A DNA stretch of 64,000 nucleotides from Planctomycetales bacterium (GTDB lineage Bacteria > Planctomycetota > Planctomycetia > Planctomycetales > Planctomycetaceae), in assembly GCA_026400835.1 (NCBI GenBank), contig JAPLOA010000056.1, forward strand, positions 1 to 64,000. Direction: 5' to 3'. The notes beneath the pieces are model-generated. The model saw only the letters and a program-made list of their open reading frames with translations. It had not been told where the DNA came from and did not search any database. Within the stretch, counting starts at the first letter, position 1; each line of letters starts with the position of its first letter. Below, one piece after another: positions 39,061 to 45,380 of this stretch. The position numbers and the translations under genes were made by a program.

Positions 39061-39300
39061 TCATAACCTGAAGTGTCAGTTTTTGAAGTTGTGCATTTTC
39101 AGGCCCGGAGGGTCGACAAATCCAATGCCGTTGGCTGACCGTGGTGTTGATTGAGATCGTGTATTGATCGTTTTCGTTTAACGGCGAGCCGCAGGCGTAG
39201 GCGAAATACAGCAGCAACGCCTGCGGCTTGCCGTTAAACGACTAAATCAATAGCCATATGACCATGGCAGTCCCTCACTGACGTGTCGGGTTGTGATGAC
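39061..39300. repeat. Repeat-rich gap: 24-bp hairpin and family A fragments
   Basis: The gap 38987-39342 lies within a cytochrome/DUF1501 pair. Bases 39061-39112 match the reverse complement of about 131-171, a family A module. Bases 39175-39198 and 39217-39240 form a 24-bp stem (arms built on GTTTAACGGC, then AGCCGCAGGCGT) with one G:T-type mismatch and an 18-base loop. Bases 39269-39300 hold a family A core, TCCCTCACTGACGTGTCGGG. Such structure between the two genes could reduce expression of the second. Confidence 0.8.
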
Positions 39301-39342: not shown

Positions 39343-40740
39343 ATGTTCAATCAATCAAGACGACATTGGATGCAGACCTGCGGCATGGGATTTGGCGGGC
39401 TCGCGCTGGCTAATATGCTGCAGGATCCTGCGAATGCTGCAGACTCCGGCGGAGCGATGCAGACTCATTTCCCCGGTCGTGCGAAGCATATCATTCATGT
39501 GTTTTTGAACGGCGGAGTTTCTCAGGTCGATACGTTCGACCCGAAGCCTGAGCTGACTCGCCGAGCCGGGCAGATGCTGCCTTTCGAGAACCTGCAAACC
39601 GAACGTAAGACCGGCGTCGCTTTGCCGAGTCCATTCAAGTTTGAAAAGCACGGCGAAAGCGGCATTGAGGTCAGCGATATCTTTCCGCATCTGTCGAAGT
39701 GCGTCGATGAGATGACCGTGATTCGTTCGATGCATGCGGAGCTCCCCAGCCATGAGATGTCTCTCATGTTGATGAACACCGGCGATCAGCGTCTGGTGCG
39801 TCCAAGTCTTGGTTCATGGTTGACGTGGGGCATGGGTTCGATCAATGAGAACCTGCCTGCGTTTATCGCGTTGTGTCCGGGAGGAATGCCGGTGGGTGGA
39901 GCTGGCAATTGGCGGTCCGCGTTTCTGCCGGGGGCATATCAGGGCACTCGCATTGATACATCGAACGCGGATCCGACACGGCTGATTGACTTCCTGCAGA
40001 ACAAACGACTCTCTAACGTTGAACAGTCAAAACAGTTTGCCTTTCTGCAGCAGTTGAATGCTCAACATCAGGCCGATCGTCCGGGAGAGGCCGCGATTGA
40101 ATCACGGATCAAATCCTTCGAACTGGCGTTCCGGATGCAGACAGAAGCAAGTGATGCGTTTGATATCTCGCAGGAACCGGAACATATCCAGAAGATGTAC
40201 GGCGAGGGACCTCAGAATCGCCAGTTGCTGATGGCTCGCCGACTTGTTGAACGCGGAGTGCGATTCGTTCAGACGTGGCATGGTGACCTGCAGCCGTGGG
40301 ACAGCCATTCGAATATCAAGGACGAACATCGACGAGTCGCCAGCCAATGCGATTCTGGACTGGCCGCGTTAATTACAGATCTCAAGCAGCGAGGTCTGCT
40401 GGATGAAACTCTGATCTTATGTACGGGCGAATTTGGCAGAACACCGTCTGTGGAAATGGGTCAGGACGGTTCCGGAGCCAGTCAAGGCCGCGACCACAAT
40501 CACTGGGGCTTTTCGCTGTGGATGGCAGGCGGCGGAATTCGCAAAGGGACTGTGTATGGAGCCACTGATGACTTCGGCTTCAAGGCCGTTGAGAATCCGG
40601 TTTCCTCGCATGATCTGCATGCGACGATTCTTCATCTCATGGGCTACGACCATCAGCGGATGACTTATCGCTATGCGGGACGCGACTTTCGCCTGACAGA
40701 CGTGCATGGGGAAGTGGTTCATCCGATTATTGAAAGTTAA
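39343..40740 (+). CDS. DUF1501 family protein, partner of the 36134 cytochrome
   Basis: This 465-residue protein has an N-terminal SRRHWMQTCGMGFGG, a Tat-like variant in which the usual residues after the double arginine are changed. The family motif NGGVSQVDTFDPKPE lies near residue 57. GRDHNHWGFSLW is in the C-terminal third, and the protein ends RLTDVHGEVVHPIIES. It is most similar to the protein at 11057. The ATG at 39343 follows aggaattaacc, a usable ribosome binding site. It is separated from its cytochrome partner by a repeat-rich gap. The function is unknown. Confidence 0.9.
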   Translation: MFNQSRRHWMQTCGMGFGGLALANMLQDPANAADSGGAMQTHFPGRAKHIIHVFLNGGVSQVDTFDPKPELTRRAGQMLPFENLQTERKTGVALPSPFKFEKHGESGIEVSDIFPHLSKCVDEMTVIRSMHAELPSHEMSLMLMNTGDQRLVRPSLGSWLTWGMGSINENLPAFIALCPGGMPVGGAGNWRSAFLPGAYQGTRIDTSNADPTRLIDFLQNKRLSNVEQSKQFAFLQQLNAQHQADRPGEAAIESRIKSFELAFRMQTEASDAFDISQEPEHIQKMYGEGPQNRQLLMARRLVERGVRFVQTWHGDLQPWDSHSNIKDEHRRVASQCDSGLAALITDLKQRGLLDETLILCTGEFGRTPSVEMGQDGSGASQGRDHNHWGFSLWMAGGGIRKGTVYGATDDFGFKAVENPVSSHDLHATILHLMGYDHQRMTYRYAGRDFRLTDVHGEVVHPIIES

Positions 40741-40842
40741 GTCCCTTCGGCGTGGCGTTGGTGAGCGGAATGGCGTTCGCCTCAAATGCTTCGGCTCACC
40801 GAATACTTTGGACTGCTTGCAGCCTGCTGCAGCTTTCCTCCT

Positions 40843-41837
40843 TCAGCAGCCTGCTGCTGAGCCACTCGCCATCAATTCCCGAGCCGCTCGACGAATCCTG
40901 AAGCGATGAGCGGACTTGGGAGCCTTCGATGAATGACTGACGATTCGCTGAGGCTGACCGGCGACGACACTGAGGAGTTTGCCGAAGTCTTTCACCAGGA
41001 GACACCAGATCTCCCCCGAGACTCCCAGTCGCTCGTTCAGTTCCACAGGTGCCAGATGCCGAACAACACTTCCCGTACCGTACACCCGTCGCTCCGCCGC
41101 CGGGGCCTTCTCCGCCACCGAAGTCGTTTGCTCTGGCTGCAGCACAGCGAACCTCGAACGTCATCGCCCGCCGAATCTCTATGGGCGTTTTCTGAACACT
41201 GAACACTGCCAACTGAACACTCGCGACGAATTCCCGCCGCCCGCTTTAGTGCCGACGTAAACTCACTCTCTTCAATCGTCTCCGCCATTGCAGCCCGAAT
41301 CGGATCCAGATCCACATACGTCGCACACGCCAGAATCGCGGTCTCATCCAGAAGCCGAACCGTTCGATAACGAGCCGGAAAAAAATTGCCGCCTTCGCCG
41401 TCTTCCTTCTGGGCTCGCTGAGCAATACTCTGACTCAACAGCCGCATCCACCACGAGATATCACTCAGTCGAGTTCGCACCGTTGCCAGTTTGTCATTCT
41501 TGTTCACGATGCTGTTGATTTCGAACTCTGCCGGCTCCAGCGGACGACGTTTCTGATCCCGCCGCTCCGGACACAGCATCAGCCAACGCCGAGCCACATC
41601 CTCTTCGCTCCATTCCCTCACGACATCGGGTCGAGATCTCAGTACCAGATGGAAAATTTTTGACATCACGCAATAGGACAGAAGCCGAGTGCCGGTGCGA
41701 GCCACCGCTTCCTCAAGCACCGTCTCGAACGCGACGAAGTCTTCGTCCTTGGTAAAGATCGGCATCCGCGCGTTCGCACGGTTCAGCACATGATAAATCC
41801 AACCCCCTCGAGTTAATCGTTCTGGTCTTCCCATCAC
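40843..41837 (-). pseudogene. Decayed RAYT/Y1 transposase, HUH motif damaged and frameshifted
   Basis: The 5' part (41837 down to about 41170) reads as a RAYT N-terminus: GGWIYHVLNRANARMPIF, then EFEINSIVNKNDKL and ILACATYVDLDPIRAAMAE. The position expected to be SNHWHLV reads MSKIFHLVL, so the first histidine of the HUH motif is lost. FWEGRFKA has become NFFPARYRT. After about residue 190 the frame becomes meaningless, while the frame 40843-41145 carries the expected tail (LNERLGVSGEIW, then LLVKDFGKLL). At least one frameshift therefore separates the two. The gene is probably inactive. Its upstream end shares a 45-bp sequence with the truncated fragment at 42824. Confidence 0.8.
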
Positions 41838-41849
41838 GCAGGATTACTA

Positions 41850-41894
41850 AAACGCCTCTCCATCGTCAATAAACGGTTCCTGACACCTTTTTGT
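41850..41894. repeat. Inverted 45-bp arm upstream of the transposase pseudogene
   Basis: This sequence (AAACGCCTCTC then a few variable bases, then TCAATAAACGGTTCCTGACA and cctttttgt) recurs in reverse complement at 42764-42808. Each copy lies just upstream of a RAYT 5' end. The two copies face each other across about 870 bp. Confidence 0.8.
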
Positions 41895-41930
41895 ATCAAT
41901 GAAAGCATTTCGCGACCAGCCAAAACGCAA

Positions 41931-42446
41931 TCAAGTGAATCGTTCGCCGTGGATGTCCCTTCGCCCACGCTCGCATTGCTCCAACGCCGCCAAGAAGGTA
42001 GCTTTCTCCGCAAGACAATGATCCCGGGATCCCTCGGCGAGTACCAGTGGATGGCCCGGCATGATCGGAACCGGAAGTTGTAGTTCGAAGAGAGCGCCGC
42101 CATCCTCATACTGATCTTCGATGAGTTGAAGGGGGATGAGCTCCTCATAACGAAACTTGCGGCGTACAATACGGAATGGAAAAGTCGCCCGTCCTTCAAC
42201 GACACCATCTTTACCAACCGTGACCGATGTGCATGGATGTTGATTGCTAAACCAGGCGAGCCCGATGCCACAAGCCCACATGACCGCCAGGATCGCATAG
42301 GGATACCATTCAGGAAACCCCACGGGACCACTTACTCCGTCGATGACTGCGTTCCAAGTGCCAACCGCCAGTCCAACGAACCACAATGCCGTGAATACCC
42401 AAACGACAATCCATTTTCGCGAGCAAGTGAAGTAGCGGTTCTTCAT
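41931..42446 (-). CDS. Small membrane protein of unknown function
   Basis: This 171-residue protein has two hydrophobic helices near the N-terminus (about 11-30 and 47-66), then a soluble beta-rich domain (TSVTVGKDGVVEGRATFPF, then LQLPVPIMPGHPLVLAEG). The overall plan resembles small PH-like or DUF3592-like membrane proteins, but no family is certain. It starts at ATG 42446 without a strong ribosome binding site. It sits alone between two inverted RAYT 5' ends with matching 45-bp arms, so it may have been carried or trapped by transposition. No partner gene is visible. Confidence 0.55.
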   Translation of the reverse strand: MKNRYFTCSRKWIVVWVFTALWFVGLAVGTWNAVIDGVSGPVGFPEWYPYAILAVMWACGIGLAWFSNQHPCTSVTVGKDGVVEGRATFPFRIVRRKFRYEELIPLQLIEDQYEDGGALFELQLPVPIMPGHPLVLAEGSRDHCLAEKATFLAALEQCERGRRDIHGERFT

Positions 42447-42683
42447 GGATACCAGTGCTTTTTCGACGAAAAGAGCGTGCGCAGGGCGGATGGAAATTTC
42501 AGAACCTTTTATGAAAGCCTAGCATCGCACGCAAGAAAGAGGTCGGCGAACGAAGAAATTCGCAGGGTGCAACTTGACCGGCCAGCGCATGGAGTGAGTT
42601 GTATTCCGCTTGCAGCGATTGAAGGATGTGTGCGGCAGAGGTCCGCTGCGGCAGATCGGCGACCCCCAGTTGGAAGTTGATGA

Positions 42684-42780
42684 AGGCACAAAAGAGGCAC
42701 AAAAAGGTGTCAAGGCACAAAAAGGTGTCAGGGGTGTCAAGGCACAAAAAGGTGTCAGAAGGCACAAAAAGGTGTCAGGA
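42684..42780. repeat. Tandem array of an 18-bp unit upstream of a transposase fragment
   Basis: Four full units and one partial copy of AAGGCACAAAAAGGTGTC, with small spacer changes (aggggtgtc), run straight into the 45-bp arm that ends at 42808. The last unit joins GGTGTCAGGAACCG. The single-copy equivalent upstream of the other transposase reads cctttttgt without expansion. The rest of 42447-42683 is unrecognised. Confidence 0.85.
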
Positions 42781-42808
42781 ACCGTTTATTGATAGTTGAG
42801 AGGCGTTT
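42764..42808. repeat. Inverted 45-bp arm upstream of the transposase fragment
   Basis: This is the reverse complement of 41850-41894, with differences limited to the middle (gatagttga against the complement of catcgtca). It links the tandem array to the ATG of the truncated RAYT fragment at 42824. Confidence 0.8.
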
Positions 42809-42823
42809 GGGCATTTTTTTGGC

Positions 42824-42988
42824 ATGGTACGACTAAAACGATCAACTTCAGGGGGTTGGATTTATCAATTGCTGAACCGTGCGAACACGCGGATGCCGAT
42901 CTTTACCAGGGACGAAGACTTCATCGCGTTCGAGACGGTGCTTGAGGAAGCCCCAACAAGAAGCATCGCCGAACAGTGCGATTCATAA
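42824..42988 (+). pseudogene. Truncated RAYT transposase N-terminal fragment
   Basis: A 54-codon open frame matches the first 43 residues of the other RAYT copy (GGWIYQLLNRANTRMPIF, then RDEDFIAFETVLEEA). It then diverges into unrelated sequence (PTRSIAEQCDS) and stops. The HUH motif and everything downstream are missing. It is oriented opposite to the copy at 41837, with its 5' end towards it. It is too short to be functional. Confidence 0.85.
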
Positions 42989-44026
42989 CGGCGGCAATAC
43001 CGGAGCAATCGAGAGCTGGATGTATAGACCTAATGCCGTCTGTTCACAAAGTGCTGTGTCCCCCTCGTTCCACATCTGCCAGGGACTGGTCGGTCAATTG
43101 AATACGGAACGTTACGGGGTTCCGTTTCTCGGGGACAATTCATTTCTGCCAGATCGGCTTGAACGAATTGATACTGCCATTCCAACGCAATGGTTCGAAT
43201 AACTCGGACCAGCATCAGGAGACGGAATGCGGGAGCGGGCGGCGAGATTGACTATCACCGTGAACCGGTCCGACCTTTCGCGAACGCACTCCGGCCTGTT
43301 CGCACCTACAACAGAATACAGTGCGACTCCTCCAGACAATGCATGCATTCAGGTTGGCGAATCGCGATGAAAACTGTCCAACCAAAGATTCAAACTTAAA
43401 GCCGCTGAATATCGCGAGCTCCGTGCAGCACCCTGATGAGCTCGCTGCCTTTCGTGCACGGCTTGTAGTAGACAACGACTTTTTCCACGGAGAAACAGCG
43501 AGCCTGACGCCCAAGTTTAAGGCGAGATTCCCCAAGGCTCGGCTTGTGGGCGTACGATTCACATCGTGCAAACAGTCGCTACCGCGTTCCAGCTGATAAC
43601 GTGAGCCCCACTTCACAGCCGAGACAACACCTTTGTCTTTTTACGCATTTCCCGCTCAGTCAGAAATCTCACATGAAGACCTGCCGGGAGGGATTCTTGT
43701 ATTGCTGCAAGGCGAACCGGGTGTGCAACAGGCGTCTGGATATTGGCCGGGATCTTTGGTTTACGTGTATCCACATTGCAATAAACCGCGAAGTCCTGCC
43801 CGGCAGTCAGGAACTACTGAAATCCGCGACGCCGCGCGACTGCTGTCTAGTGCCGCGATGCCTCGCAACCCGGAATTCATCCTGATATGTTGGGCAGAAT
43901 CACCAGTCTCCGGGAATGACGGCGCGAGAATCTCTGTGAATTCAGATTGGTCACTAATCAATCGAGAATCCCAGCGGCCCTCACGGTCATTCGCATTTGA
44001 TTCCTAATCCTTTGAAGGTCAGCGTC
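42989..44026. other. Decayed intergenic region with toxin remnant and family B repeat
   Basis: No intact gene is seen over about 1 kb. It contains the ParE-like remnant listed separately, and a family B repeat at about 43785-43830 (CCGCGAAGTCCTGCCCGGCA, then gtcaggaactactgaaatccgcgac). A block at 43688-43720 (gggattcttgtattgctgca) resembles 3413-3432. The other open frames here have no recognisable similarity. Confidence 0.5.
43396..43578 (-). pseudogene. ParE/RelE-type toxin remnant
   Basis: The minus strand encodes about 60 residues matching the C-terminal half of ParE/RelE toxins: HKPSLGESRLKLGR, then ARCFSVEKVVVYYKP, then ELIRVLHGARDIQRL and a stop. An in-frame TAG at 43579-43581 ends the frame upstream. 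No antitoxin gene or N-terminal half was found in any frame. It appears to be a 5'-truncated relic in a region already rich in transposase debris. Confidence 0.6.
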
Positions 44027-44944
44027 ATGACATTGTCACGTCGTCAATTATTCACGGCCGCATCAGCAGCGGTTTGTTGCGCTTCGGGATTGTCGCATTT
44101 GACGGCTGCCGATCCGCCCAAACGAACTGGCAGCCCGTTGCTGAAACTCAGTCTTGCAGGTTACTCATTCAATCGGATGTTCGCCAAACGTGGAACGCCG
44201 GAAGAAATTGCGAAGGCGGAGATGAGTATCGAGAAGTTCATCGAATTCTGCGCCGCTCAGGGGCTCGGGGCGACAGAACTAACCGGTTACTATTTTCCAA
44301 AGGTGATTACTACGGAGTACTTGCTGTCGATACGAGCAATGACTCATCGACTGGGGATAAGTATTTCCGGAACAGCGATCGGCAATGACTTCTGTCTGGT
44401 CGAAGGGGATGCTCGCCAGAAGCAACTGGCGGAGTGTCGCGAATGGATTGACTACGCTTCGATTATGGGAGCCCCGGCCATTCGAATTTTCGCCGGCAAA
44501 GTCCCCAGTGGTGACAACGAAGATGCAGCGATTGAACGATGTGCGGCAGGCATCAATGAGTCCTTAAAATACGCTGCCACGAAAGGCGTGTTCTTAGCTC
44601 TGGAGAATCACGGCGGCATCACGGCGACTCCGGAACAGATGATGAAAATCATCGACAAGATCGAGACTTCGCCGTGGTTCGGCGTCAACTTTGACAGCGG
44701 CAATTTCCAGACCGACGATCCGTATCGAGATCTCGCGAAGATCGCGCCGTACGCAGTGAATGCTCAGATTAAGGCTTCGATTTCCGTCAACGGAAAGAAG
44801 CAGCCGGCTGATTACGCGAAGATTATCGAGATCCTGAAGAACGCTGGCTATCGCGGCTTTGTGGCTCTGGAGTACGAAGAAGCCGAGTCCCCGTTTGAAG
44901 CCATTCCAAAGATCCTGGAAACTCTTCGACCACTGTGCTCGTAA
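44027..44944 (+). CDS. Tat-exported TIM-barrel sugar phosphate isomerase/epimerase-like protein
   Basis: This 305-residue protein has the twin-arginine motif LSRRQLF (residues 3-9) and a hydrophobic signal ending near LTAAD. The mature part is a xylose isomerase-like TIM barrel. Candidate metal ligands are Glu in ATELTGYYFP (about 84), Glu and His in LALENHGG (about 193), Asp and Asn in VNFDSGNF (about 222) and Glu in VALEYEE (about 282). The ATG at 44027 follows aagg with proper spacing; an upstream TTG is poorer. The start of the frame borders the decayed region. Oxidation or isomerisation of a sugar is likely but unproven. Confidence 0.85.
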   Translation: MTLSRRQLFTAASAAVCCASGLSHLTAADPPKRTGSPLLKLSLAGYSFNRMFAKRGTPEEIAKAEMSIEKFIEFCAAQGLGATELTGYYFPKVITTEYLLSIRAMTHRLGISISGTAIGNDFCLVEGDARQKQLAECREWIDYASIMGAPAIRIFAGKVPSGDNEDAAIERCAAGINESLKYAATKGVFLALENHGGITATPEQMMKIIDKIETSPWFGVNFDSGNFQTDDPYRDLAKIAPYAVNAQIKASISVNGKKQPADYAKIIEILKNAGYRGFVALEYEEAESPFEAIPKILETLRPLCS

Positions 44945-45019: not shown

Positions 45020-45380
45020 CGTTTTGAAGTTGCGCGTTTGCGACTATCCCAACCCGAAACGTCAGTGAGGGATTGTGATTTCGCGTTCGAACAATTCTTC
45101 CCCCAGAATCCCTCGCTCACGCTTTTTGAAGTTGCGCGTTTCGACGCTTTGGTTTGTGCAGCCTGCAAAAGCATTGGGAATTATCACAACCCGAAGCGTC
45201 AGCGAGGGATTTACGCAAACACTGCGTAAAACGCAAAAACACAATCCCTCGCTCACGCAGCGGGTTGGGATGGGCACAGATGCGCAACTTCAAAACTCAC
45301 GCTTCGGGTTGTGATGGATTCCTGTATTTTTGCAAGTATTGATCCGTTCGTGTCGCCAAATGCGCAACTTCAAAAACCCC
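45020..45380. repeat. Cluster of family A palindromic repeats
   Basis: At least three family A copies are packed here. Cores are GTCAGTGAGGGATT (45061), AATCCCTCGCTCACGC (about 45107), GCGTCAGCGAGGGATTTACG (about 45196) and AATCCCTCGCTCACGC (about 45243). The module TTTTGAAGTTGCGCG or its complement appears four times (45021, 45124, 45281, 45361). The cluster fills most of the gap between the TIM-barrel gene and the 3' end of hemQ. Confidence 0.85.

Follow-up and report, generated by a model that had tools for sequence, protein, structure and literature searches.

A Patchwork of Decayed RAYT Transposase Pieces Around a Lineage-Specific Membrane-Protein Gene in a Planctomycetales Genome

The Locus and Its Counterpart in Related Genomes

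The window that we analyzed, a 64,000-nucleotide stretch of a Planctomycetales bacterium genome, contains a DUF1501 gene (39343-40740, plus strand; Pfam PF07394, E=1e-146) and a xylose-isomerase-like TIM-barrel gene (44030-44944, plus strand; PF01261, 114.7 bits) as the left and right flanks of a segment with pieces of RAYT transposases and a small membrane-protein gene. The DUF1501 gene has 98-99% amino acid identity to its copies in the two nearest relatives, G015 and G004, and in both genomes it is adjacent to the xylose-isomerase-like gene, so that both window flanks are syntenic. A segment of 3.1 kb (40742-43845) is missing in these relatives, where the matching stretches at the same locus are ~70-110 bp apart and the sequence between them is different. 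No precise empty site, such as the original prediction for this DNA had envisaged, is readable at the locus in G015 or G004, as the gap there is filled by this different sequence, and no target duplication was seen around either the 3.1-kb segment or the 1.29-kb block that is described below.

The segment between these two ordinary planctomycete genes is a patchwork of decayed transposase pieces around one lineage-specific membrane-protein gene. The unit formed by two inverted arms is nested within the larger segment, the rest of which also consists mostly of dispersed remnants. The end of a ParE-type toxin gene and its 3' flank (43172-43581) are 89% identical to sequence on contig C10 of the same genome, where they belong to a likely ParD/ParE toxin-antitoxin pair (L082, G000:C10, ~1140-1683; ParE was identified by Pfam and ParD by eye only). 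Pieces of a dispersed genomic repeat with many genomic matches (70-94%) follow at 43681-43830. A dispersed repeat with CAACCCGAAGCGTCAGCGAGGGA-type units, which has several intergenic copies in both orientations, was also observed at 45021-45377 and 39067-39297.

The Inverted Arms and the Short RAYT Leader

The left arm (41707-41894, minus strand) holds a short-RAYT terminal motif with its leader and head, and the right arm (42764-42951, plus strand) comprises the motif, the leader and the first ~43 codons of another short RAYT, after which it is truncated. The two RAYT heads point outward, the left on the minus and the right on the plus strand, as originally predicted. The same inverted 45 bp that had been noted in front of each head is present, with 41 of 45 positions matching between 41894-41850 (minus) and 42764-42808 (plus), but the arms are really 188 nt long each and 86% (162/188) identical, a similarity far beyond chance.

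Short RAYT copies occur elsewhere in the same genome on contigs C55, C67, C74, and C53, and in the last three of these a AAAAAGGTGTCAGGAACC-type motif faces inward at both ends, the copies differing by a base or two. For an outside comparison we used 80 short-RAYT relatives found in other genomes, most of them of planctomycetes and Nitrospira; the flanks of 63 were long enough to be scored. A AAGGTGTCAGGA-type motif precedes the gene in the same orientation in 56 of the 63, mostly 54-60 nt 5' of the start codon, and 28 of the 63 have the terminal motif at both ends; the two window copies retain the 5' motif only. Given how many outside relatives show the motif at this place and in this orientation, the 45 bp of the arms are the ordinary leader of the short RAYT family. 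That the repeat might be just the conserved RAYT leader had been named in the original prediction as a point against a composite unit, together with a stable ancestral location of the membrane-protein gene, for which no site was found.

Ahead of the right arm are four partial direct copies of the GGCACAAAAAGGTGTCA end motif (42688-42778, plus strand; repeat family D1). A tendency of the short-RAYT terminal motif to tandem duplication at element borders was noted there and at several other sites (G000:C53:237047-237098 and 237713-237792; C45:102425-102474; and G014:C171, L113).

Two Broken RAYT Copies, One of Them a Chimera

Only a 5' end remains of the right copy, which is cut at 42951 after 188 nt and before the HUH motif, in keeping with the original description of both RAYTs as 5' ends. 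The left copy departs from that description, as it reads on as an ORF of 266 amino acids (41037-41837, minus strand) that ORF and copy comparisons resolve into a short-RAYT head (to ~41664) and a long-RAYT (TIRYT) tail. Resemblance to the short family extends to ~41664, and 41192-41666 then matches a long RAYT from another genome of the genus (L109, G001:C365) at 82% identity. The junction is in frame and connects homologous codons of the short and the long family immediately ahead of the HUH motif (YCVM|S vs. AIM|SNH).

An intact HUH motif is not present in the left ORF, which reads KIFHL (SKIFHL) where its relatives have NHFHL or NHWHL (SNHFHL), the first histidine having been lost. Its Y1_Tnp domain scored under the curated cut-offs of both databases (PF01797, 18.6 bits vs. 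23; NCBIfam, 28.7 vs. 80), the NCBIfam value to be read against that of the full-length short relative C74 from the same genome, which at 65.2 was likewise under the cut-off of 80 (Pfam, 56.7). Judging from match spacing, ~170 bp of the C-terminal region of the chimeric ORF are gone, and the remaining C-terminal codons of the long-RAYT tail would sit in another frame. By these comparisons, neither RAYT is intact, the right one being truncated and the left one a chimera; the latter represents a clear case of a fusion between two RAYT families at the HUH motif.

A Discrete Block Within a Long RAYT Remnant

The long-RAYT (TIRYT-type) remnant spans ~40799-43063. Its tail stops at ~41666 and its head codons restart at 42952, collinear with L109. 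These head codons (42952-42989, minus strand; 84% DNA identity to L109) directly abut the right arm and encode VMNRTVRRCFLLG, an N-terminal stretch that is conserved in this long RAYT type, including the TIRYTs of the genus. The 5' terminal repeat, GGGGACACAGCACT (43046-43063, minus strand), is common to C81 and the copies of the genus and fits the GGGGWSAS consensus; a 3' repeat of this type was not found for the window copy, although the genus copy L123 has repeats on both sides. At the 3' end region (40794-41035, minus strand; 87-90% identity to C52, C53, and G015:C428) are frame-shifted C-terminal codons and, at ~40806-40862, a dispersed palindromic repeat of ~50 nt with more than 10 copies in the genome. 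Contig C81 has a miniature form derived from the long RAYT (L090, 1501-1868), in which the 3' and 5' ends are ~150 bp apart and the gene core is absent.

Between the two parts of the long RAYT lies a 1.29-kb block (41664-42951), composed of the left arm, the orphan ORF and the right arm, which replaces ~110 bp of the interrupted gene, going by the spacing in L109. Since the long RAYT has its head codons to the right of them and its tail to the left, arms and ORF form one discrete block that interrupts another element, a conclusion drawn from collinearity with L109.

It is conceivable that the block was created by a mis-join at repeats, as the genome is a draft of 112 contigs and RAYT copies terminate other contigs (C55 and C45). 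Yet the visible overlap of the parental sequences is ~3 bp (ATG) at the left junction and 2-3 bp at the right, presumably far below the overlap used by an assembler, and both flanking genes are syntenic with those of the relatives. Because overlaps this short would hardly permit a k-mer join, we regard an assembly artefact as very improbable.

The Orphan Membrane-Protein ORF

The single small membrane-protein frame that had been predicted between the arms was confirmed as an ORF of 171 residues (41931-42446, minus strand) with two hydrophobic segments, predicted to be transmembrane. Of the six frames of its stretch it has the best codon (coding) score, and its G+C content resembles that of the neighboring genes. 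Searches for relatives were negative in 59 related genomes, 392 genomes of the phylum, plasmids, phages, viral contigs and species genomes, the species-genome and viral scans being of a kind that would reveal close relatives only. There was no match in Pfam or NCBIfam, the fold predicted from the single sequence was poor (pLDDT 55), and a PDB search with that fold returned nothing significant. The ORF is probably a host-type gene that was carried along and has so far escaped loss, rather than established transposon cargo, and would be a passive passenger.

Did the Block Move as a Composite Transposon?

Like a composite transposon, in which two IS copies lie around a gene, the locus has two inverted transposase pieces that enclose one gene, and the original prediction took it for such a unit. 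Two inverted short RAYT copies would in this case have moved the enclosed gene as a unit into the long RAYT. The inverted arms, the discreteness of the block and the lack of this region in G015 and G004 are consistent with this explanation, and to that extent the prediction holds. Its proposal of RAYT-driven transposition is not supported by the structure of the block, which, unlike a composite transposon, has no intact transposase, no terminal motif at its outer ends, no visible target duplication and no second copy. These ends lie within coding sequence at unequal distances from the motif ends (231 and 188 nt), and ~110 bp of the target are gone.

The passenger between inverted copies that the prediction envisaged in other genomes was not recovered, there being no relative of the ORF in the material searched and no second outward-facing RAYT pair among the heads of the same genome, in the genus, or within up to 4 kb of the 80 outside copies, around which every extra RAYT match was oriented like the main one. 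The unit was likewise not seen at a second site, nor was an exact empty site, in its own genome, the genus, the 80 outside loci or G015 and G004, and intact outer ends with a target duplication were found at neither side of the block. A literature search gave no relevant report of RAYT composite transposons among the matches listed. A composite transposon was rejected as the main reading on the basis of the end structure, the missing target bases and the single occurrence, and we consider it quite unlikely; nothing in the sequences compared shows that the whole unit moves as a transposon. It would be more speculative still, and in our opinion barely credible, that short RAYTs act in trans on outward terminal motifs and occasionally mobilize the DNA between them, by which orphan genes would spread among the RAYT-rich gaps of planctomycetes.

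Origin of the Arms and Assembly of the Block

Identity of the left arm is 94% with C55 and 90% with C67, compared to 86% with the right arm, and in the best tree of the arm heads the left arm groups with C55 and C67 with moderate bootstrap support (84-85%). A tree constrained to have the arms as sisters was not rejected (AU test, p = 0.21); these trees rest on heads of ~190-230 nt, a length that does not suffice to decide how the arms arose. Fold-back template switching, whereby an inverted duplication of a single short-RAYT head produced the two arms and the ORF became the spacer, would account for their proximity and inverted orientation, and the AU test leaves room for one old inverted duplication. 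The higher identity of the left arm to C55 and C67 argues against this, as does the best tree, though not decisively, and we consider such a duplication unlikely. The arms would instead be independent copies rather than the products of one recent duplication, a reading that these identities favor but do not prove.

The possible RAYT composite transposon resolves, most likely, as a decayed nested mosaic: probably, the intergenic gap holds a decayed, nested patchwork of Y1-transposase pieces of RAYT and TIR type, with independent short-RAYT copies and a block that was joined by rearrangement. At a donor site, two short RAYT copies would have inserted independently to the left and right of the ORF; rearrangement, instead of RAYT transposition, would afterwards have placed the resulting block in the long RAYT gene. 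Resemblance between the two RAYT genes near the HUH motif may have directed the left junction; the right one would have been illegitimate. This order of events, the donor arrangement and the recombination mechanism are what we infer for the block. Support for rearrangement comes from the outer block ends being devoid of a terminal motif, in contrast to C67, C74, and C53 with their inverted motif at both ends. A donor arrangement with the ORF between two short RAYTs was found nowhere in the material searched. As a counter-point to the mosaic reading, the frame of the ORF is open and of coding quality, which could mean that it has been selected as cargo.

Comparison With Known RAYT Systems

TIRtron/TIRYT elements are characterized by terminal repeats with the consensus GGGGWSAS (De Nocera, 2013, PMC3733652) and correspond to subclass 2.1 of PMC6006769 (Quentin, 2018). 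The interrupted long RAYT resembles them in its GGGGACACAGCACT end and its C-terminal extension. It differs in being incomplete in the window, where the N-terminus and the 3' terminal repeat are gone and parts of both the core and the C-terminus have been lost.

The short RAYT family, for its part, resembles the REPtron/RAYT units described previously (Nunvar, 2010, PMC2817692; Quentin, 2018, PMC6006769) in having a Y1 transposase gene between inverted short terminal motifs and in the occurrence of solo motifs and of inverted doublets at other genomic sites. Unlike in those units, the short-RAYT motif is AAAAGGTGTCAGGAACCTTTT-like and is not GTAG-tagged, and the window copies, one truncated and the other chimeric, point outward from an orphan gene. 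The comparison documents this terminal motif as widespread in planctomycetes and Nitrospira. Two REPIN-like inverted doublets of the motif, each of 72 bp, were observed in the same genome (L047, G000:C22:2175-2246, and L057, C84:27603-27674), and their internal segments are in opposite orientations.
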